Virus record (IMG/VR): IMGVR_UViG_3300037421_000079
Span: 1 to 63,866 of that record
DNA from: a virus
Strand: one strand, 5' to 3'
DNA: 63,866 nucleotides
Part shown: positions 797 to 59,577 of the stretch, piece by piece
Position numbering within the stretch: position 1 is the first letter of the stretch
How the letters are laid out: the number at the start of each line of letters is the position of its first letter
Program-made: the position numbers and the translations under genes
The notes under the pieces: generated by a model
Seen by the model: only the letters and a program-made list of their open reading frames with translations
The model's database searches: none
Told to the model about the DNA's origin: nothing

Positions 797-856
797 GTAT
801 CGGTAGAGTATGTGGCATGCCTATCCGGTTTAGACACACAGTCCTACATCTTGTGT

Positions 857-1024
857 TCAGCCGATTTCGCTCTCTCGATAAGCCAGCGCGACTGTTTGAG
901 CGAACAAAGCCAACGCAAGCATGCGACTTACTTCGGATGGCGCGTTAGCCTTTCCATCTTCGGCGATTTCGTGGAGTTTTTCGGCAACGCGCCCCCAAAC
1001 TCTAGCATGGTGTGAGGCATTCAT
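857..1024 (-). CDS. Passenger ORF of cassette copy 1, unknown function
   Basis: A 55-residue protein beginning MNASHHARVWGRVAEKL, mostly helical, with no family I recognise. An upstream ATG at 1045 is rejected because it overlaps the likely -10 box. The ATG at 1024 has GGGAGGTAAGG just upstream and sits at a sensible distance from a promoter in the element end. It fills most of the mobile cassette and reads in the same direction as the host operon. Confidence 0.6.
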   Translation of the reverse strand: MNASHHARVWGRVAEKLHEIAEDGKANAPSEVSRMLALALFAQTVALAYRESEIG

Positions 1025-1045
1025 CGTCCTTACCTCCCTCAACAT

Positions 1046-1075
1046 TTAGTAGGTCTCAGCGTTTGTGTGTGTTAA
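1046..1075 (-). promoter_or_regulatory. Promoter built into the terminal repeat of cassette copy 1
   Basis: Reading leftward, TTAACA at 1075-1070 lies inside the terminal inverted repeat. TACTAA follows at 1051-1046 with 18-bp spacing, and then the ribosome-binding site of the passenger gene. The cassette therefore seems to bring its own -35 element within its end. This is sequence-pattern evidence only. Confidence 0.5.
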
Positions 1076-1325
1076 CCGGATAGGCATGGTATGTGGGATA
1101 TCGCTTCTCGGCTTCCTCGCGCGCCTTTGTCTCGATGTCGACTCTCGCCCGGAACCCAACGAGGTGATCCATCAGCCAAGCAACACCTTCTAAAAAATAT
1201 ATCTGCTCGGCTCTTTGCTTGCTGATTGGCGGCAAAATCTCGCGCGGCGACACTGCACGACCCTCACGAGCATCGAACACATAATCGTCGTCGAGCTTAT
1301 TTCGTTTAAGTCCTTGCTCGCTCAC
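1056..1325 (-). CDS. Small conserved phage-type protein with C-terminus altered by insertion
   Basis: An 89-residue acidic/helical protein (GTG start at 1325 overlapping the polymerase TGA as GTGA). Central residues ILPPISKQRAEQIYFLEGVAWLMDHLVGF suggest a helical hairpin. The last residues (HAYPVNTHKR) are encoded by the terminal repeat of the element ending at 1088. With the insertion removed the reading frame would end four codons beyond the duplicated target site, so the original C-terminus was slightly different. Function unknown. It is translationally coupled to DNA polymerase. Confidence 0.65.
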   Translation of the reverse strand: MSEQGLKRNKLDDDYVFDAREGRAVSPREILPPISKQRAEQIYFLEGVAWLMDHLVGFRARVDIETKAREEAEKRYPTYHAYPVNTHKR

Positions 1326-3190
1326 TTCTCGTACCTTTCTGACAGTTCGCCTTCGCACGCCAGCGGGATACCGGGCAGCCACACGGGCTCCCTGACCATC
1401 TCGGTCTTGCACCGCTCCAGGTTGACCTCGGCATCCGGGCCTTTGGGGATCAGCACCAGCAGCTCGTCGTGCGGGATATTGAGGATGTGGAACCCCATGC
1501 GTTTGATCCGCACGGCCGCCTGGGTGACGATCAGGCGGCTGACGGCCTCGCACAAGTTCTGGGTGAGCTTGCCGGCGTGGAACGTCTTCCAGCCCGCCCG
1601 CGTGCGCACGCGCCAGTAGCCGTCGCGCTCGAACGGCTTGAGCCGCATGGTCTCCAGCTCCTCGGGGGTCGGCACGTGGTACTCCAGCGTGTCGTAGATC
1701 AGCGGGCAGCCGCCCGGCAAGTATACGCGCTTGTCGCGGATGTGGAAGATGCCCCAGTCTGTCGGTGGGCCGCCCGCGATGCGGGCGATCATGCGACCGG
1801 CGGTGCGCCAGAAGTCGGTTATGCGGGGGGACGAATCCCGGTAGGCGTTGCGCCAGCGCAGTGCGGTATCCAGCTCGATCTTGACGGGCGGGCCGTAGAT
1901 GCCGAGTCGGGCAGTCTTCTGGATCGACTCGGCACCCGCCATGTAACCGCACGAGAGCTTCAACTGCTTGCCGGTCCCACGCTCCAGCTTCATGTCGGGC
2001 GTGACCGGGTAGCCGTACGCGATCGACGCGAGGTTGACGTACGGGTCGTCGCCGCGGCGGAACTCCTCCAGGGCGTCCTCCTGGCCGGCGAGCCACGAGA
2101 GCACGCGGTACTCGATCTGGGCGAGGTCGACAGGCGCGAGCCAGTAGCCCTCGGGCGCCATGACGGCGCGTCGCAGGGGCGACGCTTCCTTGGGACTGTC
2201 CTCGTCCTTGCGCTTGAAATTCTGCCAGTTGGTCTTGTCCCCGCCTGAGAATCGAAGAGTGCCGGCACCCGCGTACAGCAGGTAGACGGGCAGCGGGCCG
2301 CGCCGGGCCGCCCACCCGAGCGTCTCGCACCTGGTCTGCAACATCGTTGATTTGAGGCCCAGGCGAGCCTCCGCGAGCCCTCGCACGCGGTCGTCCTCGT
2401 CGTCGAGCAGCGCCTGCATGAACGGGTCGTTCTTGGCGAACGCCGGGATCGGCCCGTTCTTGCCGTCCTTGTACTCGATCTCGACGCCCTCGGCCTCCAG
2501 CAGCGCCTGGAACTTGGCGGCCGACTGCAGCTCTGTTGGGTCGACCCCGATCTGGTCGACGAGGTCGCGCTTGCGGTCGCGCTCGCGCTCCCAGGTCCGG
2601 GCCAGCAGGTCCACGTCGGCCCGCAAAGCCGGTTCGCAGAACATGTCCATGACGATGTCGATGACGGGCAACTCGTCGCGCGGGAAGCCCTGGTTCAGCA
2701 ACAGGCCGAATATCCTCCAGATCGACTCGACCTCGTCGCACGCGCCGGCCGCCACCTGCTCCTGGACCTGCGGGGTCATCTCGTGCCAATGCTTGCCCCT
2801 GAACAAATTGTAGGGCGTCTGTTTGGGCGCGATGCCGAAGTGCTTGCGCACCGCGTCGAGGCTGACTGACAGGTGGTTGCCAAGCAGCAGCCGGGCCATC
2901 GCGAGCGTGCAGCCGCGCATGGCGGGATGGACGCCATAGTGGTGCGACAGCGCGAGGCCGTCGAACTGGTGGTGATGGGCAACGAGGAACACGTCCGACC
3001 AGTCCTCGTCCCGGGCGATCTGCCGCCACTGCGGCTCGGTGTACCAGCGGGCGTCGTGGTCCTTCGACCACTTGACCGCGATCCCGTGCATACAGAAGCG
3101 CGGGTCGCGGATGTAAGATTCAGTCGTCATCTTGCTGAGCGAGAAATCGTCCGAGTAGAACGACTCAAGGTCGGCGACCACGAACCTCAC
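1322..3190 (-). CDS. DNA polymerase, family A (Pol I type) with 3'-5' exonuclease domain
   Basis: A 622-residue replicative polymerase. The N-terminus carries a DnaQ-like exonuclease: VVADLESFY (Exo I, D and E), HHHQFDGLA (Exo II region) and a late ACDEVESIW segment. The C-terminal half is the palm/fingers module, with motif A VDLAQIEYRVLSW near residue 353, a motif B region around RGTGKQLKLSCGYMAG, and motif C HDELLVLIP near residue 573. The GTG at 3190 overlaps the upstream stop (GTGA). The length suits compact phage Pol A enzymes lacking a 5'-3' nuclease. With the primase-helicase across the divergent promoter it forms the replication core. Confidence 0.95.
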   Translation of the reverse strand: MRFVVADLESFYSDDFSLSKMTTESYIRDPRFCMHGIAVKWSKDHDARWYTEPQWRQIARDEDWSDVFLVAHHHQFDGLALSHHYGVHPAMRGCTLAMARLLLGNHLSVSLDAVRKHFGIAPKQTPYNLFRGKHWHEMTPQVQEQVAAGACDEVESIWRIFGLLLNQGFPRDELPVIDIVMDMFCEPALRADVDLLARTWERERDRKRDLVDQIGVDPTELQSAAKFQALLEAEGVEIEYKDGKNGPIPAFAKNDPFMQALLDDEDDRVRGLAEARLGLKSTMLQTRCETLGWAARRGPLPVYLLYAGAGTLRFSGGDKTNWQNFKRKDEDSPKEASPLRRAVMAPEGYWLAPVDLAQIEYRVLSWLAGQEDALEEFRRGDDPYVNLASIAYGYPVTPDMKLERGTGKQLKLSCGYMAGAESIQKTARLGIYGPPVKIELDTALRWRNAYRDSSPRITDFWRTAGRMIARIAGGPPTDWGIFHIRDKRVYLPGGCPLIYDTLEYHVPTPEELETMRLKPFERDGYWRVRTRAGWKTFHAGKLTQNLCEAVSRLIVTQAAVRIKRMGFHILNIPHDELLVLIPKGPDAEVNLERCKTEMVREPVWLPGIPLACEGELSERYEK

Positions 3191-3567
3191 AGTCGCGTCT
3201 CCGCGAGCGGCACCAGTCGGTAGCCACACGAGTACGTGGACTTCACGTCGTAGCCTAATTGCCGAAATGCCTTTCTGGCAAAACACGCATAGGAATGCAG
3301 CACCTTGGCGGGTGCGTCGCCCGCGTACGCCTGTCCCAGGACGCCGACAATCAGGACTTCATAACTAATCACGCTGGGCATCGCGCGCACCAGCATGTGG
3401 GCCATCTCGGCCACCCTCGGCATCGTCTTGATCTCGGTGGCGCCGTCCGAGATCAGGTTGTTGTTGAGATCGACCAGCAGGCGGGAAGCCGGCAGGAGTT
3501 GGCGGCAACAGGGGCAGCGGGCGACCTTCGGGGGTCGCGCGGCAGTCACGACGGCGCGCGCGAGCAC
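3187..3567 (-). CDS. OmpR/PhoB-type winged-helix protein with N-terminal CxxC motif
   Basis: A 126-residue protein. Around residues 20-25 is a CPCC motif that may bind zinc. Residues about 35-125 match the C-terminal DNA-binding winged helix of response regulators: an opening beta segment (LLVDLNNNLISDG), a helical core (MPRVAEMAHMLVRAMPSVISYEVL) and the closing recognition-wing pattern (HSYACFARKAFRQLGYDVKS, then GYRLVPL). There is no receiver domain. The GTG at 3567 has GGGGGGAG upstream and starts one base after the preceding small gene. It is the second gene from the leftward promoter and immediately precedes DNA polymerase, so an early transcriptional regulator is likely. Confidence 0.75.
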   Translation of the reverse strand: MLARAVVTAARPPKVARCPCCRQLLPASRLLVDLNNNLISDGATEIKTMPRVAEMAHMLVRAMPSVISYEVLIVGVLGQAYAGDAPAKVLHSYACFARKAFRQLGYDVKSTYSCGYRLVPLAETRL

Positions 3568-3568
3568 G

Positions 3569-3655
3569 TCACTCCCCCCTGAGCGCCCGCGGAGAGAGGC
3601 GCCAGACCAGCAGGCCAATGATGGCGCCCGTCGCGATGGCAGCCAAGATGCTCAT
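3569..3655 (-). CDS. 28-residue single-span membrane peptide
   Basis: ATG at 3655, preceded by GGAGAGGAC, encodes MSILAAIATGAIIGLLVWRL followed by eight more residues and a TGA. The hydrophobic stretch of about 18 residues would span the membrane once, with an Arg-rich cytoplasmic tail. It is the first gene after the leftward promoter and abuts the winged-helix gene. Function unknown. Confidence 0.6.
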   Translation of the reverse strand: MSILAAIATGAIIGLLVWRLSPRALRGE

Positions 3656-3687
3656 GAGTCCTCTCCGTGTAGTAGACGGTAGTATCA

Positions 3688-3717
3688 TTATTAGCAAAAT
3701 CTAAAGCGCCGCGTCAA
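3688..3717 (-). promoter_or_regulatory. Leftward sigma70-type promoter of the replication/modification arm
   Basis: On the minus strand TTGACG (3717-3712) and TAATAA (3693-3688) are separated by 18 bp, about 30 bp upstream of the 28-residue membrane peptide gene. Immediately downstream is a repeated TACTAC/TCTACTAC sequence that recurs near the promoter at 8866 and could be an operator. Confidence 0.6.
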
Positions 3718-3750
3718 GGGGGTCGGCGGGAAACCGCAAAACAAATCGTA

Positions 3751-3852
3751 TTGACGGGCGGGCGGCGCGGGCGCAACATGGTTTCGCCGTTGCGAAACGG
3801 AAAAGCCCCCGCTCGATGGTGCGAGCGAGGGCGGGTCCGGCACGGAGCCGGA
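3751..3852 (+). promoter_or_regulatory. Rightward promoter and hairpin-rich leader of the primase-helicase gene
   Basis: TTGACG (3751-3756) and CAACAT (3774-3779) are spaced 17 bp. Three inverted repeats follow: GTTTCGC/GCGAAAC at 3781-3798, which sits over the expected start site and so may be an operator; an imperfect GC stem at 3805-3834 with loop ATGGTG; and TCCGGC/GCCGGA at 3836-3852. The gene begins only at 3923, so a structured leader of over 130 nt is predicted. Confidence 0.5.
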
Positions 3853-3922
3853 AGGCGGTTTCCGAGGTGGTGCGAACAGCCCCAAGGTAGCCGCTCGGGC
3901 AGCGAGCGTCAAGGGGCAGCAG

Positions 3923-6184
3923 GTGCCTACAGCCGACAATCCACTGCTTGAAGCCGCGCTCCAGTACGCCGCTCGCGGCTGGAAAATTTTTCCTCTAGTT
4001 CCGCGCACCAAGCGGCCCGCCATCCGGGGGTGGCGGCAGAAGGCTACCAGCGACCCGGACCAGATCGAGCGGTGGTGGGGCGCGCGGCCGGACTACAACG
4101 TCGGGCTGGCGACCGGCGAGTCGTGCCTGGTGGTGCTCGACCCGGACGGCCCCGAGGGGCTGGCCGAGTTGCACCGGCTGGTGGGCCTGCACGGGCGCCT
4201 GCCGCGCACGCTGGCGAGCCGGACGCCCGGGGGCCATCACTTGCTGTTCCGCGGGTCCGGCGTGCGCTCCACGGCGCGCGGAGACCTGCACGTGCGGGGC
4301 GAGGGCGGGCTGGTGGCGCTGCCGCCGTCGATCCACCCGAGCGGAGTGGCGTACCGGTGGGTCGACGCCAGCTGTCCGATCGCCGACCTGCCGGCCTGGG
4401 TGGGGGCGTGGCGGGCGAGCCTGGGCGGCAGGGTCGAGACGGGACCGGACCTGGGCGCCTTACCGGCTCACCTCGTAGGGCTGCAACGCCGATCGCCCGC
4501 CCGGATCGGTGGAATGTGGTCGCTCCACGAAGAAAGTCGAATACGATCGGCGCTGCAAAGAGTTCCGGCCGATTCCTATCAATCGTGGCTCGAAGTCGGA
4601 ATGGCGCTGCACAGCCTCGGATGGAGTCGGTCAGACGGCACCGATATAGGCTTGGAAATCTTCGACAATTGGTCCGCGACGTGCAGCGAGAAATACAGCC
4701 AGGCGGCAGCCGAGGAAAAGTGGAGCTCATTCGAGCAATCCGGCAGGAGCGGCATACAGATAGGCACTTTGTTTCATCTCGCCGAGGCGCATGGGTGGCG
4801 AGGTGAAGTATTAGTTGATAATAATGGTCACAAGCCATTGAGCCAACAACAAGAAAGCGAGGTGATCCCACATGACCGAATCGGGTCGCATAATGCCCAG
4901 CCCCACGGAGGAGTGCCGCCCCCCGTGGGGCTCTTCGCTGGGGCGCAGGAGGCCGCTGGCGCGCTCGAGCCGGCAGGGGCACTCAACGGGGCGCACGCGC
5001 TGCCGGCCGAACTGGCGGCCGCGCCAGCGGCGGGAATCGTGTTCCCGGACGTGACCCAGAAGGGGAAGCCGGCTGGGACGCGCCACAACGCCATGCTGGC
5101 GATCGAGGGGCTGGGGATCGAGTGCGAAGAGGACACGTTCCACGAGGCGTTCGTGGTGGGCGGGCACTCGCTCGGGCGCCTAGTGGGGGAGATCAGCGAC
5201 AAGGCCATCCACCAGCTGCGCGACCTGATCCGGCGCGTGTTCGGCTTCGAGCCGGGCGCCCAGAACGTCCGGGACGCGGCCGAGACCCTGTGCGTGCAAA
5301 ACCCGTTCGACCCGGTGCTGGACTACCTCGACTGCCTGCGGTGGGACGGGGTGCGGCGCATCGACGCGTGGATGGCGGACTATCTCGGGGCGCCACGGGA
5401 CGAGTGGAGCGCGGCGGTCGGGCGGTTGATGCTGGTCGCCGCGGTCAGGCGCGCGCGCCAGCCCGGCGCCAAGTGGGACCACGTAGTAGTGTGGGAGGGG
5501 CCGCAGGGCGCCGGCAAGTCCCACGTGCTGGAGACGCTGGCAGGCGAGGAGAATTTCAGCGACATGCGGATACTGGGGCGGTCGGAGGAGCGCCAGCACG
5601 AGGCAGTGCGGGGGGTGTGGATATACGAGATCGCGGAACTCGCGGGGATGAAGCGGGCCGAGGTCGAGCACATCAAGGCCTTCGTGACGCGGAAGAAGGA
5701 GAGCACCAGGACGGCCTACGCGCACTACAAGACCCACGACCGGCGCCGCTGCATATTCGTGGCGACCACGAACGAACTGCACTACCTGAAAGACGACACC
5801 GGCAACCGACGATTCTTGCCGATCCGCACGGGAGTCATAGATTGGGCCGCAGTAGCGCGCGACCGCGACCAGCTGTGGGCGGAAGCGGTCGAGGCCGAGC
5901 AGGGATACGGGCCGCTGGTGCTGCCGCACGACGTGCGTTCGCGGGCGAGCGCCGAGCAGGAATCGCGGCTCGTGCTGGACGATTGGCGGGACGTAATCGA
6001 AAGGTGGATAGGGGATAAAACAGAGACCTCGATCGGCGAAACGGTGGTCGGCGCGCTCCACATGCAGGTGCGGGAAATCGACCAGATTTGTTCCACGAGG
6101 ACCGGAAGGATTTTACGGCAACTCGGATTCACGCAATATCGCAAACGCGACGGGGAAAGCCTGTCGTGGCGGTTTAGGCGCTAA
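3923..6184 (+). CDS. Primase-polymerase / VapE-like helicase fusion
   Basis: A 753-residue replication protein. Residues about 5-190 form a bifunctional primase-polymerase domain (GWKIFPLVPRTKRP, then VVLDPDGPEGL, GGHHLLFRGSG and the late GGLVALPPSIHPSG). Residues about 195-300 resemble a PriCT-type linker domain (ALQRVPADSYQSWLEVGMALHSLGW). Residues about 450-690 form a virulence-associated-E/SF3-like helicase with Walker A EGPQGAGKSH near residue 525 and the IYEIAEL and IFVATTNE segments. The GTG start is weakly supported by AAGGGG. It probably primes and unwinds at the repeat region that directly follows it. Confidence 0.92.
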   Translation: MPTADNPLLEAALQYAARGWKIFPLVPRTKRPAIRGWRQKATSDPDQIERWWGARPDYNVGLATGESCLVVLDPDGPEGLAELHRLVGLHGRLPRTLASRTPGGHHLLFRGSGVRSTARGDLHVRGEGGLVALPPSIHPSGVAYRWVDASCPIADLPAWVGAWRASLGGRVETGPDLGALPAHLVGLQRRSPARIGGMWSLHEESRIRSALQRVPADSYQSWLEVGMALHSLGWSRSDGTDIGLEIFDNWSATCSEKYSQAAAEEKWSSFEQSGRSGIQIGTLFHLAEAHGWRGEVLVDNNGHKPLSQQQESEVIPHDRIGSHNAQPHGGVPPPVGLFAGAQEAAGALEPAGALNGAHALPAELAAAPAAGIVFPDVTQKGKPAGTRHNAMLAIEGLGIECEEDTFHEAFVVGGHSLGRLVGEISDKAIHQLRDLIRRVFGFEPGAQNVRDAAETLCVQNPFDPVLDYLDCLRWDGVRRIDAWMADYLGAPRDEWSAAVGRLMLVAAVRRARQPGAKWDHVVVWEGPQGAGKSHVLETLAGEENFSDMRILGRSEERQHEAVRGVWIYEIAELAGMKRAEVEHIKAFVTRKKESTRTAYAHYKTHDRRRCIFVATTNELHYLKDDTGNRRFLPIRTGVIDWAAVARDRDQLWAEAVEAEQGYGPLVLPHDVRSRASAEQESRLVLDDWRDVIERWIGDKTETSIGETVVGALHMQVREIDQICSTRTGRILRQLGFTQYRKRDGESLSWRFRR

Positions 6185-6391: not shown

Positions 6392-6393
6392 GG

Positions 6394-9593: not shown

Positions 9594-10001
9594 GGGCCGA
9601 CAATCTACCGGCCGGCGCCGCTCGGCGCACCCCTGCTCGAGCGCCAGCTCGGCGCCGCGACTTGGTTTCCCTAACCCTTTCAGTGCTCGGTAACGGTCTT
9701 ACAAGGCCGTTACTAAACCTAATAAAATCAATGGTGATTTTGGTGATTGGTAGAAAAATACCACACTCCAATATGGGATTGGCGCTCGGCTCGACCGGGC
9801 ATGCGTCGGTTTGTCACACCCCTCTAACCAGCGTTCATGCCGTGAACGCGACCGGTCGTCGGGTTCTTGCGAGTATAATTAAAAGTCACACCACTCAGTT
9901 GCTCCCCCAAAAAATCCCAAAAACGCCCCCACCTCTGCGTGCATTATATTTTTCTTCCCAAGCCTGGCCTCCGCGCTCCCGATGCACTACAGTCCTCAAT
10001 C
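9594..10001. promoter_or_regulatory. 408-bp regulatory intergenic region with two operators and a TATAAT box
   Basis: No gene is supported here. A near-perfect 24-bp palindrome (arms GTAACGG/CCGTTAC, 9690-9713) lies about 100 bp upstream of the HTH gene. A second palindrome, GCGTTCA-tgccg-TGAACGC, occupies 9831-9849. A perfect TATAAT is at 9874-9879 with no good -35, so activation or repression at the adjacent palindrome is plausible. GGTGATTTTGGTGATT direct repeats lie at about 9732-9748. The sequence 9880-9990 is C-rich with poly-A patches. Confidence 0.55.
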
Positions 10002-10619
10002 ATGATCGCCGCCCTGTTCGTCGAGACTGATGGTGTCTACTTCGGCCTGCCGCACGTCGAGCCCTACGACGCGACCAGGGACGCGCGCACCTACGCCGGC
10101 CCCTGGCGTGTAGTCGCGCATCCGCCGTGCGAACGGTGGGGCAGGTTCTGGCACGGCTCGACGCGCAAGCCGCACCAATTCAAGCTCGGCGATGACGGCG
10201 GCGCGTTCGCCGCAGCTCTGCGGGCTGTGCGCGATTTCGGCGGCGTGCTCGAACACCCGGCCGACAGTCACGCGTGGCGCGCGTTCAACCTGCACGCTCC
10301 GCCGCGCACGGGCGGCTGGATCACCGCGGACCTACATGGCGGGCGCACCTGTTGCGTCGAACAAGGTCACTACGGCCACATGAGTCGCAAGGCGACGTGG
10401 CTGTACGCCTGTGGCGTTGCACTTCCCGAACTGATCTGGGGCCGGTGCGAGCAGAGGCTTCATCCGGTCGCGCTCGCCCGCCACGGATACGCGAAAGCCA
10501 GGCGCATCGGCATGATGGCGATGGTGGGTGGGAAGGACAAGAAGCGCATCCGCAACACCACTCCGATCCAGTTTCGCGATCTGCTGATTTCCCTGGTTGA
10601 CTCTCCCCCTCCTGCGTAG
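10002..10619 (+). CDS. Conserved phage protein with HPPC motif, possibly DNA-methylase related
   Basis: A 205-residue protein starting at ATG 10002. The sequence ALFVETDGVYFGLPHVEPYD and VVAHPPCERWGRFW marks a family found in many proteobacterial phages. The HPPC segment resembles the Pro-Cys motif IV of cytosine-C5 methyltransferases, and it precedes a DPPY-type methyltransferase gene, but the SAM-binding FxGxG motif is not evident. A DNA-modification role is inference. No strong ribosome-binding site is visible. Confidence 0.65.
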   Translation: MIAALFVETDGVYFGLPHVEPYDATRDARTYAGPWRVVAHPPCERWGRFWHGSTRKPHQFKLGDDGGAFAAALRAVRDFGGVLEHPADSHAWRAFNLHAPPRTGGWITADLHGGRTCCVEQGHYGHMSRKATWLYACGVALPELIWGRCEQRLHPVALARHGYAKARRIGMMAMVGGKDKKRIRNTTPIQFRDLLISLVDSPPPA

Positions 10620-49833: not shown

Positions 49834-49834
49834 C

Positions 49835-50697: not shown

Positions 50698-50900
50698 CGT
50701 CGCAGCACCGCTTCGACTAGCTGTTTCGCTTCTGGTTTAGCCGGCCAGCTTCCAGGCCAGATTAGTTTATACTCGTCGATCAGGCGCTCGCATGCCATAT
50801 CGACTGTCCATTTACAAAACTTGCATTGGACATAATCCTGATCTTTGCAGTGCTTTGGGCCAATACAATAAAATATCACGTGCTTATCCGGTTGACACAT
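50694..50900 (-). CDS. Small zinc-finger protein whose start is now inside the mobile cassette
   Basis: A 68-residue protein. YCIGPKHCKDQDYVQCKFCKW provides four cysteines for zinc. Its present ATG (50900) lies in the terminal repeat of the element at 50879-51195, so MCQPDKH is encoded by the element. Without the insertion the frame would start MIFYCIGPKHC at an ATG overlapping the helicase stop (ATGA). The cassette has thus replaced the native start with an in-frame one; the target-site copy also leaves GTG-ATA-TTT in frame. Confidence 0.7.
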   Translation of the reverse strand: MCQPDKHVIFYCIGPKHCKDQDYVQCKFCKWTVDMACERLIDEYKLIWPGSWPAKPEAKQLVEAVLRR

Positions 50901-51195
50901 ACAGCCCTACATCTTGTGTCAGCGAATGCGCCACGCGATGACCATGCATCGCCAGCCCAGCCGCAGCATTTCTCTAGCGTTCATGCGGAATTGGACGTGA
51001 GTTTCGGGATTGAGGCTCGAAACTTTGAACATTCCGCCGCCGTAGCTGATTTTTGGGCCAGTAGGGTGCCAAAAAAGCGTCGCATCCTTCGGCCACGGAA
51101 TGTCATGCTCAGCGAAAGCGGCTCTGAGGTTTGCTTCCCGTTGCGTCAACATCTAGTGGGTCTCCCTGTTTGTGTGTGTCAACCGGATAAGCACG
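50879..51195. mobile_element. 317-bp non-autonomous IS1595-type cassette (MITE-like), copy 2
   Basis: Ends begin CGTGCTTATCCGGTTGACACA and match as inverted repeats at 24 of 25 positions. The flanks are a perfect 8-bp duplication AAATATCA (50871-50878 and 51196-51203). The element carries one small ORF (50919-51152) and no transposase. About 45 bp at each end resemble cassette copy 1 (for example CCTACATCTTGTGT near the left end). It split the coupled helicase/zinc-finger junction. Confidence 0.93.
50919..51152 (-). CDS. Passenger ORF of cassette copy 2, unknown function
   Basis: A 77-residue protein, MLTQREANLRAAFAEHDIPW..., ending MVIAWRIR. It has no relation to the ORF of copy 1 except the identical start context (TGTTGA at the ATG). 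GGGAG lies about 9 nt before the ATG. It would be transcribed with the helicase operon; the TTGACA of the element end (51182-51177) is too close to the ATG to give a normal leader. Confidence 0.6.
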   Translation of the reverse strand: MLTQREANLRAAFAEHDIPWPKDATLFWHPTGPKISYGGGMFKVSSLNPETHVQFRMNAREMLRLGWRCMVIAWRIR

Positions 51196-51200
51196 AAATA

Positions 51201-52805
51201 TCATATCTCCCCCTTCCTGACCATCTCCAGCAGGACGCCCTGCATCGACGTGTTGGTCTCCAGCCGCCGGTATATCTCGCGCTCCAGGGGATTGCTGACG
51301 ATCTGGTATATCGTCGTCGGGTACTTCTGACCTGGTCGATGTACGCGCTTGTTCCCCTGTATCCACAACTCGCCCTTCTCGGTCGGCCCCGCCCAGATCA
51401 CTGTATCGGCTACCACGAACTCGTTGATGCCGTGCGCGGTGGTCTGAGGGTCACACAGGATAACGCGTATCTTGTCATCGTTGGCGAATCGCTGGATTAC
51501 ATCGGGTCTCTCCTTGGCGGGGATTGCGCCGTTGATCGACTCACAGCCCCATCGTTTCGATAATCGCATCTTCAAGATATTCAAGACGCTTGTCAAGGGG
51601 ATAAAAATGACCACCTTCCGGGTGGTGCTGTCAATGATGGCCTCGATCTCCCGCATGCGAGGCTCGGCGTCTACGGTGTGGTACGTATGATCGTCATCAT
51701 AGATCGCCCCGAGCGATATTTGCAGGAACTTGCCACGTGCCACCCCCTCGTTGACGGGGTCGATCGTCTTGCCCGACTTGAGGACGATTTGCAGGTCGCG
51801 CTTGAGCGTGGCCATCTGCTGCTTTTGCTCGGCTGTCAGCTCCACCGAGCGCATCTGCATCGTCATTTCTGGCCCTTGCCAGACTTGAGCTATGTCGAAT
51901 CGAATAGCCGGGATCAACAACTGACGTGCTGCCTCATACCCACCTTTTTTGGGGAACCAGCGAAACGAGAACTGATTGGGCTTGAACATTGTCTCTTGTT
52001 GGAATGTCTTGAATGACTTACCGTGTGCGTTGTTCATCAATTTGGCAAGTCCGTAGGCGTCGGTCGGGGCCTGTGGAGTGGGACTGCCGGTGATCTCCCA
52101 CAAATAAGGGCGCTTGCCGATGATCTCGCGCGCCAGGCGGTGCCGCTTGGTGCTGGCGTCGCTATAACCTGATGCCTCGTCGACGATTACCAGCTTGATG
52201 TCCTTGCGCTCGGCCAAGTCCTTGGAGAACCCATCGAGGTCGAAGCGCTTGCGGGTGTGTGCGCCCACGCCCACACCGTCAAAGTTGATGATCGAGAAGT
52301 CGGCCTTCTTGGCCAATAGCGTGCGGCGTTTCTCGGCCGAACCAGTGAGAATCTCGAACGATCGCTTTCCCAGAAAATTTTTCCACAGCGCCTGTGCCCA
52401 CACATCCTCCAGGATCGTGAGCGGCCCGATGATGAGCGCTCGAAAGTCCTTGCCGAAGCCGCGCATCAAGAAGTCGGCGGCCCACAAGGCAGAAAGCGTT
52501 TTCATCGTACCTGGATCGCTAAGGTTGAAACACCTTGGGTGTAAAACCTGAAAATTCGCCATCACCCGCTGGTGCGCCAGAGGCTTGCGGCCGGGCTCGA
52601 TCGGCCAGTCGTAGTTGGCGTCCGTCATCACGGGCGCGACCGGCAGGTCGAAGTGCCTGAGTATCTGGGAATTGCGCAGCGTGCGGGGCACAGCGATGTA
52701 CTGGCCGTTGACGGCCTTCGCCTCCGGGATCGCCTGCAGGACGAAGGGAGACTGGCTCTTATAGATGAGCAGATTCCGAGTCTGGTCGTGGTAAAAGTTA
52801 GACAT
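51201..52805 (-). CDS. SNF2-type DNA helicase/translocase
   Basis: A 534-residue SF2 ATPase. LAHQRVMANFQ (Q-motif region), LSDPGTMKTLSAL (Walker A near residue 97), LVIVDEASGYSD (motif II), WEITGSPTPQAP (motif III), KVVIFIPLTSVLNIL (motif IV), VILCDPQTTAHGINEF (motif V) and NKRVHRPGQKYPTTIYQI (motif VI with RxxRxGQ) all appear in order. ATG 52805 is chosen; it overlaps the methyltransferase end by 8 bp. Probably remodels replication or recombination forks. Confidence 0.9.
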   Translation of the reverse strand: MSNFYHDQTRNLLIYKSQSPFVLQAIPEAKAVNGQYIAVPRTLRNSQILRHFDLPVAPVMTDANYDWPIEPGRKPLAHQRVMANFQVLHPRCFNLSDPGTMKTLSALWAADFLMRGFGKDFRALIIGPLTILEDVWAQALWKNFLGKRSFEILTGSAEKRRTLLAKKADFSIINFDGVGVGAHTRKRFDLDGFSKDLAERKDIKLVIVDEASGYSDASTKRHRLAREIIGKRPYLWEITGSPTPQAPTDAYGLAKLMNNAHGKSFKTFQQETMFKPNQFSFRWFPKKGGYEAARQLLIPAIRFDIAQVWQGPEMTMQMRSVELTAEQKQQMATLKRDLQIVLKSGKTIDPVNEGVARGKFLQISLGAIYDDDHTYHTVDAEPRMREIEAIIDSTTRKVVIFIPLTSVLNILKMRLSKRWGCESINGAIPAKERPDVIQRFANDDKIRVILCDPQTTAHGINEFVVADTVIWAGPTEKGELWIQGNKRVHRPGQKYPTTIYQIVSNPLEREIYRRLETNTSMQGVLLEMVRKGEI

Positions 52806-53964
52806 TGAAAGCTGCCACGCGCCGTCGAATATCATCCTGTGACTTAGAATCATTCTCGGCTACGATAGTCCGAAATCCTTCTTCGTACGCCGCTTGTGCA
52901 GTTGTACCAGTGCCGCCAAAAGGATCGAGCACCACGCCGTTTGGTGGCGTCACTAGGCGCACGAGCCAGCGCATCAGCGCGAGCGGCTTAATAGTCGGGT
53001 GCTTGGAACCGCCGCGCTCTGCCTTGCTAGCCTTCGCGCAGTAATAAAAGCGATCGACGCCGACCAACTCGCGCCGCTGTCCCGGCAGCATCGCGAAATT
53101 AGTACCGCCGTGCTCGGTGTAGCGTGTATCGGCGGTAGCCTCGCCATCGCGAAAAGTATTGAAGAACCGTGCAGCGCTGCCCGCATCCCCGCGCTTAGCG
53201 AACGCCACGCGACCGAACTCGCCGTAGCACGCGGTGTTCTCATCACCCGTGCGCGATGGCTCTGTGCCGCGCACATCACCCTGCTGTCCCTTCGATTTAG
53301 GAAACCCACCCAAAACTTCGTCGCTGCCATCGTGCACGAGGTTCGTGGGCCAGCGACCAAGGTCCGTAGTACCAATCGCTTTTGAGGATTGCAACGAACC
53401 GTCGACACGACCCGAGAAAGCGTTACCAGCGTACTCGACACCATCGCGCAGCGGATGAACTTCTCGCTTCGGACGGCCTTGTGCTTCGACGCGACACGCG
53501 TCGATGTTCAGTGCGCCAACTCCGTGCGTCGCAAGATTATTTTCAAACGTACCATCGAGCGGTTTGCGAGCAAGCGCGATCGGCTCAGACGCCGGTTTGA
53601 GCGTCGTGCCCCACCCGTCCCACGTGCCATCGAAATTCTTGCCCTTCGGCATGCCCTGTCCGTGCAACCACTGCACCATGTCGAATATTTCGAAGCCAGC
53701 ATCTTCAATCGCGCAACCAAGACGGTGGTACGTGCGCGTTCCAGAAAAAGCCAAAAGATATGCGCCGGGTTTCATTGTTCTTAAAATTGCCTTCCAATAA
53801 AGAGCGCTTGGAACGCCGTGATCCCAGAGCTTGCCCATGAAATTTAAGCCGTAAGGAGGATCAGTAATGGTGGCGTCAATACATGCTGGACGCATAGATG
53901 AAAGCATCTCAAGGCAATCTCCTGGATATAGGTAGATGCGATTTTTTATGAGAATCTCAATCAT
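52798..53964 (-). CDS. DNA (N4-cytosine/N6-adenine) methyltransferase, beta class
   Basis: A 388-residue protein. ATITDPPYGLNFMGKLWDHG carries the DPPY catalytic motif near residue 36, and GVVLDPFGGTGTTAQAAYEE the SAM-binding FGGTG motif near residue 345. That order (catalytic before SAM site) defines the beta group. No cognate nuclease is adjacent, so it is an orphan methylase likely protecting phage DNA from restriction. A central target-recognition region spans about 110-280. Confidence 0.92.
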   Translation of the reverse strand: MIEILIKNRIYLYPGDCLEMLSSMRPACIDATITDPPYGLNFMGKLWDHGVPSALYWKAILRTMKPGAYLLAFSGTRTYHRLGCAIEDAGFEIFDMVQWLHGQGMPKGKNFDGTWDGWGTTLKPASEPIALARKPLDGTFENNLATHGVGALNIDACRVEAQGRPKREVHPLRDGVEYAGNAFSGRVDGSLQSSKAIGTTDLGRWPTNLVHDGSDEVLGGFPKSKGQQGDVRGTEPSRTGDENTACYGEFGRVAFAKRGDAGSAARFFNTFRDGEATADTRYTEHGGTNFAMLPGQRRELVGVDRFYYCAKASKAERGGSKHPTIKPLALMRWLVRLVTPPNGVVLDPFGGTGTTAQAAYEEGFRTIVAENDSKSQDDIRRRVAAFNV

Positions 53965-54274: not shown

Positions 54275-54534
54275 TTTTGTTCCTCGAATGCCGCTCGCAG
54301 TTTTTTCTGCATGGGTGTCGGATTGTCGCCCACCAGCTCTAATGCTCGCTTGAGGATCACGTCAGACCAGCGGCGCACCGCCGTCTCGGGCGAGTCGCCG
54401 ACCGCCAAGTTGGACGCCCGCCCGGCCTCGGCCAGCACCTGGGCCATCGCCTCGGCGTACTCGATGATGCCCCGCTGGGTCTGCACCACCTTGAGGTAGT
54501 GGGCGACCATGTCGTCGGTGAAGGGGCCGCTCAC
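54217..54534 (-). CDS. Hypothetical protein in recombination cluster
   Basis: A 105-residue helical protein from a GTG overlapping the upstream stop (GTGA). VAHYLKVVQTQRGIIEYAEA and RWSDVILKRALELVGDNPTP are prominent. The last about 20 residues overlap the VRR-NUC start. Function unknown. Confidence 0.6.
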   Translation of the reverse strand: MSGPFTDDMVAHYLKVVQTQRGIIEYAEAMAQVLAEAGRASNLAVGDSPETAVRRWSDVILKRALELVGDNPTPMQKKLRAAFEEQKCAPQRDTKKLTSRSTSTE

Positions 54535-55217: not shown

Positions 55218-56617
55218 TCTGCCGCCTGCCTCTGCTCCGCCCGCACCCGCCTGCGTAGCGCCCGCACGATCTCGTCGAACACGCTCGCCCAGTCCTGCCC
55301 CGGTCCCTGGTTGAACGTCCGGTGCTTCTTGTACCACAGGATTCTCTCCCCGCGCGGACCAAGCCTATAATCTCTGCCGAGGAATGAATACGGTATCCAG
55401 ACTTCCTTGCCGGCTAGCCCGGCGATGTGCCCGAGGGCCGACTCGCAGCATACCACGAGGTCGAGGTCGCGGAGAATGTCGAGCGTCGCCACCACGTCGA
55501 CCAGGTAGCCCGACAGGTCGCGGATCACCGGGGCGGCGCCCGCGTCGTGCAGGTCCTTGGCGCGCTCGCCTGCCTGCAGGCTGTAGAGCTGCACGCCGGG
55601 CGCCCGGTACAGGTCGAGGAACTGCTGCACCGGGATCGACCGGTACTTGTTAATGTCGTTCTGGGTCGAGCCCGCCCACGCGATGCCCACGTGGAGCAGC
55701 CGATCCGGCACCTTCCAGTTGGCGGGCGTCTCGTAGACCGGGTAGTCGATGGCGGGCGCGTTCCTGATCTCCTGGTCGGTCAGCCCGAGCGCGAACGGGA
55801 GGCTGACGAACGTCGTCCAGGCATCCGCCTGCGGGAAGCTGATGCCGGCCTGCGGGACCACGTTGACGTTGGGCAGGTGCGCGAACGCGTGGTTGAACAG
55901 CCGCAGCAGCTCGGACGGGATGCTGACATGGACGTACTTGCAGCGCTCGGCCGCGGTCGCCACGAACCGCGAGTACGACAGCGTGTCGCCCAGCCCCTGG
56001 TCGGCCACCAGGAATACGGTCTTATCGCGCTCGCCCGTCCACTTGGGGTACGGGTAGAGCAGGAAGTTGGTGAGCCGGTAGGGATAGCGAGCCTCGAAGT
56101 GGCGAAGGCCCTTCTGGTACTGACCGTCGAACAGGTAGGCGAACGCCGCCGCCATCCCGACGATCGCGTTGGCGGGCTCCAGTGCATAGGCCCTGTCCGC
56201 GCAGGTGACGCTGGCGCGCTGGTCGCCCAGGATGCCGTGGATCAGGCTCAGGTTCATCCACGCGTACGCCAGCGTCGGGTCGAGGTCGACGGCCTTCTGG
56301 GACCACTCCAGGGCCTCGCGGGTCTCGCCCGCCCGGTGCAGGCACCAGCCGATGTTGCACATCGTCTTGGCGCGCTCGGTCTGGTCGGGGATGTCGCACT
56401 CCAGCGCGCGCCGGTAGCACGCGACGGCGGCCTCCACGAGGCTGAGGTCGGAGTCGTTGTTGCCGGCCTGGTAGAACGGGAGCCAGTAGGTGGGGTCCGC
56501 GTAGCAGGCGGAACTGAATAGTTGGAAGCCGTTGTTGGCCCCCTTCGGGTTGGTCTTGTCGTTGACGCTCGCGACGGCAGCGTTGTAAAGTTGGACGGCA
56601 GTCGGACGGTCACCCAC
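55214..56617 (-). CDS. TPR-repeat glycosyltransferase (GT9/GT41-like)
   Basis: A 467-residue protein. Residues about 5-190 are TPR helices (ALEWSQKAVDLDPTLAYAWM; ADRAYALEPANAIVGMAAAF). The C-terminal half is a GT-B donor domain (VADQGLGDTLSYSRFVATAA; HVGIAWAGSTQNDINKYRSI; VCCESALGHIAGLAGKEVWI) as in heptosyltransferase-like enzymes fused to TPRs. It may glycosylate a virion or host-surface component. The GTG start has CGGAGAA upstream. Confidence 0.85.
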   Translation of the reverse strand: MGDRPTAVQLYNAAVASVNDKTNPKGANNGFQLFSSACYADPTYWLPFYQAGNNDSDLSLVEAAVACYRRALECDIPDQTERAKTMCNIGWCLHRAGETREALEWSQKAVDLDPTLAYAWMNLSLIHGILGDQRASVTCADRAYALEPANAIVGMAAAFAYLFDGQYQKGLRHFEARYPYRLTNFLLYPYPKWTGERDKTVFLVADQGLGDTLSYSRFVATAAERCKYVHVSIPSELLRLFNHAFAHLPNVNVVPQAGISFPQADAWTTFVSLPFALGLTDQEIRNAPAIDYPVYETPANWKVPDRLLHVGIAWAGSTQNDINKYRSIPVQQFLDLYRAPGVQLYSLQAGERAKDLHDAGAAPVIRDLSGYLVDVVATLDILRDLDLVVCCESALGHIAGLAGKEVWIPYSFLGRDYRLGPRGERILWYKKHRTFNQGPGQDWASVFDEIVRALRRRVRAEQRQAAE

Positions 56618-56647
56618 GTCTAAATTCTCCGCTCATTTTGGCGCATG

Positions 56648-56839
56648 TTAGGCAAGAGCGTCGTAACAGTGATCGTTTTTGACCGGTTCCCAACTGCACT
56701 TTTCGCAGATGATTCGATCCTTCCCCTCATTGTCGGTGCACGTCATAATACGCATGCGACCGCAGTTCGGACAATCGTCCCCGGTGTAGTTGCCATAAGC
56801 CCACCAGTGATAATCGAGCATCGGCATGGCACATGTCAT
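56648..56839 (-). CDS. Small zinc-ribbon protein
   Basis: A 63-residue protein. DDCPNCGRMRIMTCTDNEGK...IICEKCSWEP has two CxxC pairs, a standard zinc ribbon. The ATG overlaps the upstream stop by ATGA. Function unknown. Confidence 0.65.
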   Translation of the reverse strand: MTCAMPMLDYHWWAYGNYTGDDCPNCGRMRIMTCTDNEGKDRIICEKCSWEPVKNDHCYDALA

Positions 56840-57138
56840 CTATGTCTGCCGTCAATCGGCTCAAAGTCCAAGCCCATTGACGTTGTGGCTTGGAAGATAA
56901 TTCCAGGCGCCGTCATCGCGCTAGCACATTCTTCGGCGTTGCCTGTTTCCATCCAATAAGTTCGAAACTCGTATAGAGAACAGCCTATTTTGCGAGCGGC
57001 CTCCTTCTGGCTTTTGGCTGCAATGACAGTTCGCACTTGTCCGCCATGCTCGCGGCAGCGCTTCGGATTCATCATTAGTCCACCAAAAACCTTCATGGCT
57101 TTATCCGCTCTTCGCTTATGTCTGCCTACCAAGTCCAT
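56836..57138 (-). CDS. Conserved small phage protein
   Basis: A 100-residue protein. MKVFGGLMMNPKRCREHGGQ and VIAAKSQKEAARKIGCSLYE then YWMETGNAEECASAMTAPG match a family of small phage proteins of unknown function with 'TGNxxE..A...PG'. ATG 57138 is used; ATG 57096, where many family members begin, is an equally good alternative. Confidence 0.7.
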   Translation of the reverse strand: MDLVGRHKRRADKAMKVFGGLMMNPKRCREHGGQVRTVIAAKSQKEAARKIGCSLYEFRTYWMETGNAEECASAMTAPGIIFQATTSMGLDFEPIDGRHR

Positions 57139-57275
57139 CTTTGAATCGGGAAAGCCAATTTGGCCATCCACCGAAAGGGATATGGCCCACGGTGCATGAA
57201 CCATCCCGGCTTTTCAAGGCGACACCACCAGCCACCGTTGCCTGAGAAAACGCTTATCGTTCGGCCTGCGCGCAT
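57126..57275 (-). CDS. Small hypothetical protein
   Basis: A 49-residue Trp/Arg-rich protein (MRAGRTISVFSGNGGWWCRL ... IQRWTW). It fills the gap between two coupled genes and overlaps the next start by 13 bp. No family recognised. It was found by reading the gap in frame. Confidence 0.5.
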   Translation of the reverse strand: MRAGRTISVFSGNGGWWCRLEKPGWFMHRGPYPFRWMAKLAFPIQRWTW

Positions 57276-57283
57276 GGCGGTCT

Positions 57284-57577
57284 CTATTTACATGCGCCGA
57301 GTTCAGCAACGTTTTCTGTCTGAACTACAGGGCGGAATTTATGTGCGTCAAGCGACCACTCCTGTTCATCGCCGTCGCTCCATGGAATAGATGGGTTTGG
57401 AAGCTCAACCAACCGGATACCATAGCCGGGAATGTTCGGCTCTTGATGGATCGACTCAACGGTATAGACCTCGTTCAACTTCGGGCGAAGCGGCATGTAG
57501 GGAGCCGTTTCTGGATTGATCGAATCATCGATGCAGACGACTTTCTGGCCTATTTTGAACATCGGTTCCTCGATCAT
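57284..57577 (-). CDS. Conserved small phage protein (MFKIGQKVVCI type)
   Basis: A 97-residue protein. MFKIGQKVVCIDDSINPETA and YTVESIHQEPNIPGYGIRLV indicate a small SH3-like beta barrel common in phages. ATG 57577 overlaps the upstream stop (ATGA); ATG 57562, preceded by GAGGA, is the other possible start and gives the canonical MFKIG. Confidence 0.7.
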   Translation of the reverse strand: MIEEPMFKIGQKVVCIDDSINPETAPYMPLRPKLNEVYTVESIHQEPNIPGYGIRLVELPNPSIPWSDGDEQEWSLDAHKFRPVVQTENVAELGACK

Positions 57578-57705
57578 TCATCAGCATCTATGGTTGACCC
57601 ATCGTCGGTTTCCAAGCCATCCACATCGCTAATAAAAATCTCAAGCGCGTCAAGGTGAGGTCTGACGCTGTCCGGCAAAGTGCTCCAATCTGTAAAAATC
57701 GTCAT
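57574..57705 (-). CDS. Small acidic hypothetical protein
   Basis: A 43-residue protein (MTIFTDWSTLPDSVRPHLDA ... STIDADE), start preceded by GAGGGACC. ATGA overlap with the next gene supports it as real. Function unknown. Confidence 0.55.
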   Translation of the reverse strand: MTIFTDWSTLPDSVRPHLDALEIFISDVDGLETDDGSTIDADE

Positions 57706-57720
57706 GGTCCCTCGCGATCG

Positions 57721-57840
57721 TCAGGTACATGCGCTACAAAGGTGAGCCCGCCGGCCGGCCGTCCTTACGGGTAGGCCCCACCGCCCATATAGGGCGCTGG
57801 AAAAAGGATCGACGGGCTCGCCTTCATCGCGCTTGTTCAT
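57721..57840 (-). CDS. Small gene beginning in the target duplication of the IS
   Basis: A 39-residue protein (MNKRDEGEPVDPFSSALYGR ...). Its ATG (57840-57838) is part of the 8-bp duplicated target CATCAAGA, so the IS inserted immediately upstream of the start codon, separating it from the operon gene at 59578-59970. Basic and Cys-containing (CSACT) at the end. Coding status is uncertain. Confidence 0.45.
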   Translation of the reverse strand: MNKRDEGEPVDPFSSALYGRWGLPVRTAGRRAHLCSACT

Positions 57841-57861
57841 CAAGACATGCCTATCCGGTTT

Positions 57862-58908
57862 TCACCCATGACCACTAACCGTAGGGTGCTGCCACGTTCC
57901 CTTGTAGAGCCCGTCATAGGTCGGGCTTTCGCCGTTCGCGCCGATGCCGAGCAAGCTGCGAAAGGCGTTGAACGGGTAGAAACGGCGGTTGAAGCGAAAG
58001 GCGAACTCGTTGAGGTAGGCTTGCAGATGCTTCGGGCTGACCGCGCCGTGGTGCGTGCCTTGCAGCCACGCCTTCAGGTTCGAAAAGACCAAGTGGACAA
58101 TGGGCAGATATTCTTCGGCCACGTCGGGCTTGGAGGCTTCGACCACCGGCAGATGCTCGTACCCGCGATCGGCAAGCGAATTGTACCCGCCCCAAGCGTC
58201 CGTGATGACCATCGCGCCGGGGTAGACGGCGGATTCCACAAACTCGCACAATGCCTTGGCGCCCCGGTTCGCGGCGATATCGAGCCGCAGCCGGCCAGCG
58301 TAGCGCCCGCCGCGCCGTTCCGGCTTGTCGCCCTTCTTGGGCGGGCGCTGGCGAACCTCGACGGCTGCGACCACGAGCGTCTTTTCGTCGGCATGGACGC
58401 CCTTGCCTTCGCCCCGGACCACCCCGCCGATGTACGTCTCGTCAATCTCGACGTGGTCGCGCCGGCCAAGGTTGCCGCCGATCATGTCGCGATCCGGCCG
58501 GACCATGCCGGCCCGCAGCTTGTGGAGGATTTGAAAGGCCGTCTCGTACCGGGACAGGCGAAGCTGCCGCTGGAACTGCACCGCCGACAGGCCGGGCGTC
58601 ATGCTCGATACGAGGTAGGCGCCCCAAAACCATACGGCGAGCGGCGTGTGCGTGCGCTCCATGACGCTTGCGGCGGTCAAGGCCGCGTCCCGGCGGCAAG
58701 CCTTGCATCGCAGCACCCCCGGCCGATTTTCGAACCGGTAGGGCTCTCCTTTGACGTGGCACGCCGGGCACGCGAAGCCCTTGGGCCACTTGGCGCTTTC
58801 CAGCCATCGGGCGCAGGCCGCGTCGTTCGGAAAGAGCCGCTGGAACTGCGGCAGCGAACGCGGGAACGGCAGGTGTTCCCATTGGAGCACGTCGGCGTGC
58901 GGGGGCAT
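57862..58908 (-). CDS. IS1595-family transposase
   Basis: A 348-residue protein. The N-terminal zinc ribbon has FACPACHVKG...RCKACRRD (CxxC pairs near residues 47 and 71). The ISXO2-like DDE domain has VEIDETYIGG (first Asp), AMVITDAWGGYNSL (second Asp), then HLVFSNLKAWLQGTHHG and HLQAYLNEFAFRFNRR, the characteristic C-terminal signature of this family. It should recognise the CRTGCYTATCCGGTT ends of its own element, and probably those of the two cassettes. Confidence 0.95.
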   Translation of the reverse strand: MPPHADVLQWEHLPFPRSLPQFQRLFPNDAACARWLESAKWPKGFACPACHVKGEPYRFENRPGVLRCKACRRDAALTAASVMERTHTPLAVWFWGAYLVSSMTPGLSAVQFQRQLRLSRYETAFQILHKLRAGMVRPDRDMIGGNLGRRDHVEIDETYIGGVVRGEGKGVHADEKTLVVAAVEVRQRPPKKGDKPERRGGRYAGRLRLDIAANRGAKALCEFVESAVYPGAMVITDAWGGYNSLADRGYEHLPVVEASKPDVAEEYLPIVHLVFSNLKAWLQGTHHGAVSPKHLQAYLNEFAFRFNRRFYPFNAFRSLLGIGANGESPTYDGLYKGTWQHPTVSGHG

Positions 58909-58912
58909 GTTT

Positions 58913-59245
58913 CTACCGCCCCTTGCGCAAATCGTTCAACTTGGCGGTCGCGGCGGCTAGGTCGTCCCGCAGAACAGCACAATGGCCAACGTCCTCAGCG
59001 ACCGCTAGATCATCCGCAAGCTCGCGGACTAGGCGTTCCTGATTCCCCACAAGCTGCTTCTGATTGCGGATCAAGCTGTGCTCAGCATAGCACTTCGGAT
59101 CGCCGACCGTGCCACAGGTGGGGCATTCCGGGCAAATACAGTCGTCAACCGAAGCGCCGCATATGTCGCATGGCCCCTCGTCCTGATCGGGTGGTCCGCT
59201 GCATCCCGGCGGATATGACCAGCCGAAAACTGATCTTCTTGCCAT
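58913..59245 (-). CDS. IS passenger protein with cysteine clusters
   Basis: A 110-residue protein. CDICGASVDDCICPECPTCG has a dense CxxC array, a likely zinc-binding N-terminus, followed by a coiled coil (RNQKQLVGNQERLVRELADD). The start may be ATG 59245 or GTG 59254 (GTGA overlap with the preceding passenger gene). It lies between the IS ends and is not needed for a standard IS1595. Function unknown. Confidence 0.65.
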   Translation of the reverse strand: MARRSVFGWSYPPGCSGPPDQDEGPCDICGASVDDCICPECPTCGTVGDPKCYAEHSLIRNQKQLVGNQERLVRELADDLAVAEDVGHCAVLRDDLAAATAKLNDLRKGR

Positions 59246-59250
59246 GGCGA

Positions 59251-59481
59251 TCACCACCCGAACTCGTCGCCGCGTTCCAAAATGCGGATGTTCGTGCAGC
59301 CGTTATCGCCAAGCAGCGAGCGGACAGCCTCATCCACCGTGGCAAATTCCTTACCCGAGCCGTAGGGCGAGGCCGTAGCCGAAAACCGGCCTTTCCATTC
59401 GTGAATCCGCACGACCTTCCGGTCGGCTCGATATTGCTCTGCAATATGGTCGGCAGAGACTACACAAAGCTGGTTCGCCAT
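59251..59481 (-). CDS. IS passenger protein, small alpha/beta
   Basis: A 76-residue protein (MANQLCVVSADHIAEQYRAD ... ILERGDEFGW). ATG 59481 is chosen because GGAGAGGAAG lies just upstream; ATG 59493 is possible. It is the first gene downstream of the -35-like TTGACA within the IS right end. Function unknown. Confidence 0.65.
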   Translation of the reverse strand: MANQLCVVSADHIAEQYRADRKVVRIHEWKGRFSATASPYGSGKEFATVDEAVRSLLGDNGCTNIRILERGDEFGW

Positions 59482-59577
59482 CTTCCTCTCCATCAGTGGG
59501 CAGGATCGCCCAATGACGAGACACTAGCACGGGTGGGTGTGGGTGTCAACCGGATAGGCATGCATCAAGACTGCCGC

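Follow-up and report, generated by a model that had tools for sequence, protein, structure and literature searches.

Gene cassettes with IS1595-type ends in phage genomes: a probable family of mobile insertion cassettes

Introduction

Mobile insertion cassettes (MICs) are known from MIC231A1 of Bacillus cereus and mic-qnrD of Proteeae plasmids, and MIC231A1 has been reported to be mobilised in trans by the transposase of the insertion sequence (IS) IS231A (PMC3913671). The IS1595 family comprises the ISPna2, ISH4, IS1016, IS1595, ISSod11, ISNwi and ISNha5 groups (PMC8101967), and passenger-carrying "transporter ISs" have been described (PMC3129680). Here we analyse three elements, E1, E2 and E3, in a stretch of 63,866 bases (the window) that makes up the IMG/VR virus record IMGVR_UViG_3300037421_000079. 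E1 and E2 are probably non-autonomous phage gene cassettes, that is MICs, moved in trans by an IS1595-family transposase; E3 is, as judged from its sequence, a passenger-carrying IS1595-family element. A first inspection of the window (the original prediction) had proposed that an IS mobilises interchangeable small genes into phage operons, and had considered such cassettes new in a phage.

Like known MICs, E1 and E2 have inverted repeats without a transposase gene, a target duplication and a cargo gene instead, and they fit the MIC definition (PMC3913671) in every feature testable from sequence. Known MICs belong to other IS families and to bacterial plasmids or chromosomes, whereas the ends are here of IS1595 type and the carriers are phage genomes; moreover, more than 50 cargo types coming from phage genes sit on near-identical ends, promoterless and behind a head that closes reading frames. 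E3 resembles the IS1595 family and the transporter ISs in its single transposase (zinc ribbon and DDE_Tnp_IS1595), 8-bp duplications and passengers, and differs from known IS1595 elements in having relatives in phages, with differing passengers and a frequent stop-GCC-ATG junction. In their working the cassettes recall those of integrons, being promoterless single genes exchanged as modules with standard borders; however, every accepted element has DDE-type ends and 8-bp duplications at scattered targets, so that, judged by these features and with no search made for attC folds, they are not integron cassettes by mechanism. With miniature inverted-repeat transposable elements (MITEs) they share their ends, non-autonomy and the existence of short forms in bacterial genomes, but the viral copies are coding and under selection; the E2 cargo is conserved, and the E1 interior is open, with no homologue.

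Three elements in one phage genome

The 15-bp inverted ends of E1, E2 and E3 have the form CRTGCYTATCCGGTT, the pair being identical within each element. Their core, TGCYTATCCGGTT, occurs three plus three times in the record, always at the six element ends, and its reversed control gave no occurrence. The coordinates, ends and perfect 8-bp duplications of the original prediction proved exact (Table 1), as did its assignment of an IS1595-type transposase to the longest element only: the E3 product matches DDE_Tnp_IS1595 (PF12762, E=1.4e-32, residues 151-307) and, N-terminally, Zn_ribbon_IS1595 (PF12760, E=1.1e-11), and PF12762 has no other match in the record. Annotated plasmid-borne ISAcr1-like elements are the nearest DNA matches of E3, at about 68% identity. 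E1 and E2 had been credited with homologous ends of about 45 bp and unrelated interiors; the length is right for one end, about 38 bp being common at the other, and the interiors are unrelated. The proposed cargo ORFs (open reading frames) of 55 and 77 codons are present, that of E1 reaching 62 amino acids from an upstream ATG. E3 in addition has two passenger ORFs, which lie upstream of its transposase gene.

A terminase large subunit, phage-type structural matches, DNA polymerase A and an SNF2-type helicase in the record agree with a phage. A small ORF on the downstream side of the DNA polymerase gene harbours E1, which is inserted four codons ahead of the ORF's stop and changes its end from ...YPTYSTDT* to ...YPTYHAYPVNTHKR*, with a new stop within the E1 head. 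The insertion site of E2 is the 3' end of the helicase gene, whose stop codon is held by the target duplication (read on the minus strand, TGATATTT). The junction was an ATGA stop/start overlap before E2; now the E2 terminus creates a GTG start at the junction with the next gene.

A cassette family in viral contigs

Public contigs were scanned with a pattern from one cassette end, a second end pattern and a broader pattern. Elements were accepted when they had an 8-bp duplication with at most one mismatch, and viral cassettes were defined as 260-1400 bp long without an intact IS1595 transposase. Nearly all copies come from metagenome contigs, often fragments, and counts are lower bounds. The first end pattern matched viral contigs in 34 stretches. 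Some 19 bases at one terminus are set by the scan pattern, so that their conservation is built in; this does not apply to the duplications, the opposite terminus or the remainder of head and tail, and the elements are strongly conserved outside the pattern. Most complete copies from the first scan had a matching opposite end and a perfect duplication, neither of which the pattern specified.

Altogether we collected at least 99 distinct elements: at least 64 viral cassettes, at least 12 IS-sized viral elements and at least 23 elements in bacterial genomes. The transposase-less elements in IMG/VR viral contigs have observed lengths of 266-1284 bp. Among the 58 viral cassettes of clear orientation, there are 58 distinct target duplications, and the two 15-bp ends match perfectly in 40 and differ by one base in 18. 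Heads fall into classes A (47 cassettes), C (7) and B (3) among the elements listed. An identical 43-nt head was found in eight cassettes, and none of the 28 pairs that they form has related cargo. Tails come in three interchangeable forms before the end (CACAAGATGTAGGG, CACAACATCTAGGG and CACTAGGGGTAGGG), all of which keep a TAG; the first two are apparently related by a 4-bp inversion (GATG/CATC).

By their sequences, these elements appear to form a large and so far undescribed cassette family carried by soil and peat phages, including that of the window. We found no description of IS1595-ended cassettes in phages in the open-access literature, which is weak evidence of absence since subscription journals lay outside the search. 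GenBank phages contained neither E1, E2 nor a cassette head, and the transposases there had less than 33% identity, none being close. The novelty first claimed is thus partial: cargo-bearing non-autonomous IS derivatives were already a named class, the MICs, and it is the phage setting, the cargo diversity and the standardised coding head that we did not find described.

The same pattern gave a different picture in bacterial genomes, where 16 of the 23 elements, as against 0 of the 64 viral ones, are shorter than 260 bp (Fisher p=2e-12). These short elements are MITE-like (102-255 bp), and the ends are carried chiefly by peat and freshwater Alpha- and Gammaproteobacteria. In the isolate Rhodoplanes elegans DSM 11907, phage-type genes are found close to cassette K065. 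MITE-like elements of 172 bp with the same 15-bp ends occupy differing sites with distinct 8-bp duplications in contigs L182, L212, L229 (Methylobacter metagenome-assembled genomes) and L256.

Cargo genes and their capture

The 82 ORFs examined, which include a few second ORFs and ORFs from cassettes whose orientation or frame was misjudged by our simple picker, form 67 similarity clusters, with more than 50 unrelated cargo types. Pfam matches include Mom (E=5e-33), Dam (2e-30), NADAR (3e-25), N6_N4_Mtase (up to 3e-43), OrfB/TnpB (6.5e-22), crAss001_48 and, twice, the Api92-like DUF1281_C; weaker ones are to C5-methylase, PAPS-reductase and radical-SAM families. Matches to PHROGs are to phrog_363, a DNA methyltransferase of phages (1e-37), and to several phage families of unknown function, and an ASCH-like cargo was assigned by eye, without a profile match. 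No match was obtained for the majority of small cargos, among them those of E1 and E2; for E1 there was no Pfam family above the cut-off, no PHROG match and no local relative.

Cargo is coding: ratios of nonsynonymous to synonymous substitution rates (dN/dS) are 0.11-0.52 in all homologous pairs but K029/K030. The E2 cargo shares 84% protein identity with a resident, non-cassette gene of phage contig L151, at a dN/dS of 0.06 with synonymous sites near saturation. Conservation of the kind expected of MIC cargo was thus found for E2 and family-wide, E1 being without a homologue. An AlphaFold model of the E2 cargo had low confidence (predicted local distance difference test, pLDDT, 58; predicted template modelling score, pTM, 0.35).

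Cargo is captured from resident phage genes with ORF precision. It starts at a fixed place, usually element position 44, and its alignments with resident genes are generally limited to the ORF, breaking off at head and tail; the E2 cargo has its native first codons replaced by the ATGTTG that the head supplies. In the chimera K064, the cargo shares 64% identity with that of K067, and the 3' segment and tail are almost the same as those of the ASCH-like cassette K054, a mosaic that is direct evidence of recombination between cassettes.

TnpB is cargo in three separate cassettes at 65-68% identity; as OrfB_IS605 or Cas12f1-like protein it is the sole cargo between IS1595-type ends at L104:1253-2408, L144 ~3713-4860 and L159 ~2760-3920. 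Cassettes K069 and K076 carry cargo of the phrog_12600 family, of which the window has a resident member (9939-10619).

Insertion sites and cargo expression

Orientation and gene borders were obtained with a codon-usage gene caller. Both window cassettes have their cargo co-directional with the neighbours, as the original prediction said. Its "always" does not extend to the relatives: where both flanks could be called, 46 of 60 viral cassettes had cargo that runs in the direction of both neighbours, and in 5 it runs against both. Insertions fell inside a called gene in 19 of 52 cases, compared with 69% of random positions, which indicates a preference for gene borders, arising from target choice or from selection. 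With duplications, coding conservation and operon co-orientation, the family bears out the proposed system of interchangeable-cargo cassettes in phages. The search suggested at the outset, for paired ends followed by comparison of the enclosed ORFs, recovered variable cargo; the elements are neither repeats without duplications nor copies of one degenerate, non-coding interior.

Uninterrupted sites were found for several cassettes. That of K086 is uninterrupted in eight relatives, with a junction overlap of about 8 bp in most, and that of K048 is empty in the window phage. Both genes flanking the E2 site are present without the cassette in phage L082; a degenerate pattern for relatives of the E2 helicase found none in viral contigs. 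In L099 the same two genes are parted by an HNH endonuclease gene, itself split by K064 (L099:3599-4233).

The class A head reads CATGCTTATCCGGTTGCCACACACAAACGCTGAGACCTACTAG followed by ATGTTG; translation that enters it in any of the three frames meets a stop at about nucleotide 33, 43 or 50, which places the stops at the cargo ATG. All frames are closed within 75 nt in 49 of 59 heads, compared with 7.5% of random phage 75-mers. In class C heads GGAG directly precedes the start codon; among class A cassettes, some carry a more internal ribosome site. An inbuilt promoter was considered and rejected, as a strict motif was present in 0 of 71 shorter elements and in 4 of 12 IS-sized ones. Taken with the orientation bias, these heads suggest that cargo is transcribed by the operon and translated by re-initiation or from its own ribosome site. 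The terminal CATG was also considered as a start-codon donor for the next gene, and showed no general frame signal (12/51 versus 15/51 in another frame).

Candidate partner transposases

The same ends also delimit phage IS1595 elements, whose passengers change from one to the next. E3 and 11 other phage ISs have inverted ends and 8-bp duplications, and each of the nine examined in detail has two or three passenger ORFs, unrelated between ISs. Cassette ends also occur on 8 of 25 contigs with an E3-like IS, far above the collection rate, to which shared ecology could add. The ends and duplications of the cassettes, and the phage ISs that share these ends, suggest mobilisation of the cassettes in trans by an IS1595 transposase. 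The C/T variant of the core was weighed as proof that E3 moves E1 and is suggestive at most, another phage having a C-type IS beside T-type cassettes.

The passenger ORFs of the phage ISs (elements K087-K098, e.g. L067:2392-4090 and L125:3979-5875) are often joined by stop-GCC-ATG (TGAGCCATG). TRAGCCATG is about five times denser inside the elements (12 in 82 kb) than outside (41 in about 1.34 Mb, loci being partly redundant).

Alternative explanations

On the reading of E1 and E2 as phage MICs, a cassette would have IS1595-type ends and, between a conserved head and a conserved tail, as a rule a single promoterless gene. A transposase of the same end specificity, such as that of E3, would act in trans on the 15-bp ends, and insertion would duplicate the 8-bp target. 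Surviving copies would lie mostly at gene borders of phage operons, along the direction of transcription, where the head would terminate upstream frames beside the cargo start and allow translation from the operon mRNA. The pool of phage accessory genes would supply the cargo, which would be swapped within unchanged ends. Mobilisation in trans, translational coupling, benefit to the phage and the mechanism of capture are the parts that we infer.

Several points weigh against this reading. Heads are related by descent, so that frame closing does not amount to 58 independent observations; the close cargo pair K029/K030 is nearly identical, with too few changes for dN/dS; and the gene caller behind the orientation and border counts is crude. 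An E3-like transposase was found on only about 8 of 49 other cassette-bearing contigs; many contigs are incomplete, and the host may be another source of the helper. The ends of E3 match those of the cassettes only in the 15-bp core and scattered subterminal bases, which makes the exact partner IS uncertain, and the E2 core is the T variant while that of E3 has C. Finally, movement of the cassettes is deduced from sequence, no transposition having been observed.

It is quite improbable that E1 and E2 represent degenerate IS1595 copies or MITEs whose ORFs arose by chance. The MITE-like elements common in bacterial genomes and the E1 cargo, devoid of relatives, would fit such decay, but no viral element is of that size, interiors have Pfam and PHROG matches and evolve under purifying selection, and the cargo start is fixed; for the family and for E2 this explanation is already refuted. 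The cassettes could instead be ordinary derivatives of transporter ISs that lost the transposase, with no dedicated exchange of cargo. Passenger-carrying ISs are on record (PMC3129680), and all nine examined phage ISs carry passengers, so loss of the transposase gene would yield cassettes. We nevertheless find this unlikely: the head classes (A, B and C) differ from the IS heads, identical heads bear unrelated cargo, cargo has no similarity to the passengers of the nine ISs at E<1e-3, and K064 is an exchange inside a cassette.

A separate, stand-alone phage transposase might move the cassettes as an integrase does in integrons. This idea was raised by the K086 site and by an IS1595-type transposase gene (309-315 amino acids), first seen without cassette-type ends, in several cassette-bearing phages. 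Most copies of the gene turned out to be bounded by other ends (GGGAATTATATAC) with their own 8-bp duplications, marking a second transposon group, which essentially refutes the idea and leaves it very improbable. Least credible is an integron-like or other site-specific recombination system, or an assembly artefact. Single-gene modules with fixed borders do resemble integron cassettes, but inverted 15-bp ends combined with 8-bp duplications that differ between copies are the signature of DDE transposition, relatives have uninterrupted sites, and contigs from many samples contain the same elements, one of which lies in the genome of R. elegans DSM 11907.

Returning to the MIC reading, the cassettes look like plug-in modules that shuffle accessory genes, often DNA-modifying, between phages. 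More tentatively, phages of peat and soil Proteobacteria might maintain a transposon-based economy of gene cassettes, in which a standardised, promoterless, translation-coupled module with IS1595 ends repeatedly captures whole phage ORFs, many for DNA modification or host interaction, and spreads them between unrelated phages, much as an integron would in function but by way of DDE transposition; this wider picture is possible, and we hold it with some doubt. The acquisition and swapping by phages of the small accessory genes that govern escape from restriction and other defences is mostly ascribed to unspecific recombination, and the cassette ends provide a searchable route. They flag recently moved genes, making the small unknown ORFs that they enclose a catalogue of candidate anti-defence or host-takeover functions, in which Mom, methyltransferases and NADAR already figure. 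The family would add a large and diverse phage branch to the few MICs known from bacteria, and offers a system for studying gene capture by a transposon.

Feature coordinates and a second transposon group

Table 1. Positions of the three elements and associated features in the window.
Feature	Position	Strand	Details
E1, transposase-less cassette, 273 bp	816..1088	-	15-bp ends CATGCCTATCCGGTT at 816-830 and 1074-1088
E1 target duplication GTATGTGG	left copy 808..815, right copy 1089-1096		perfect 8 bp
E1 cargo ORF, 55 aa (62 aa from ATG at 1045)	857..1024	-	ribosome site GGGAGGTAAGG 5' of ATG 1024
E1 head, conserved 43-nt class A leader (inverted repeat + ACACACAAACGCTGAGACCTACTAA)	1045..1088	-	all-frame stops beside cargo start
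E2, transposase-less cassette, 317 bp	50879..51195	-	15-bp ends CGTGCTTATCCGGTT at 50879-50893 and 51181-51195
E2 target duplication AAATATCA	50871..50878, other copy 51196-51203		perfect 8 bp
E2 cargo ORF, 77 aa	50919..51152	-	
SNF2-type helicase gene	51201-52853	-	stop codon inside E2 duplication copy 51196-51203
E3, complete IS1595-family element (predicted), 1717 bp	57846..59562	-	15-bp ends CATGCCTATCCGGTT at 57846-57860 and 59548-59562
E3 target duplication CATCAAGA	57838..57845, other copy 59563-59570		perfect 8 bp
E3 transposase, 348 aa	57862..58908	-	zinc ribbon + DDE_Tnp_IS1595
E3 passenger ORF 2, 114 aa from GTG	58913..59257	-	inner ATG start at 59245; no Pfam match
E3 passenger ORF 1, 80 aa	59251..59493	-	begins MERKMANQLCVV
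Promoter-like sequence in E3 head, inward-reading	59510..59548	-	TTGACA, 17 bp, TAGTGT; spacing by eye

The second IS1595-type group in phages has ends GGGAATTATATACTTGACTCCC and 8-bp duplications (L280:2431-4437, L282:2434-4151, L291:1809-3457 and others). Its elements measure 1.3-2.8 kb, and the 0.93-kb transposase gene leaves room for passengers. The methyltransferase cassette K086 (L170:7632-8915) interrupts a transposase gene of this group. At least one transposase-less short form has a ribosome site near its end, and a short form of 285 bp lies at L011:2223-2507.

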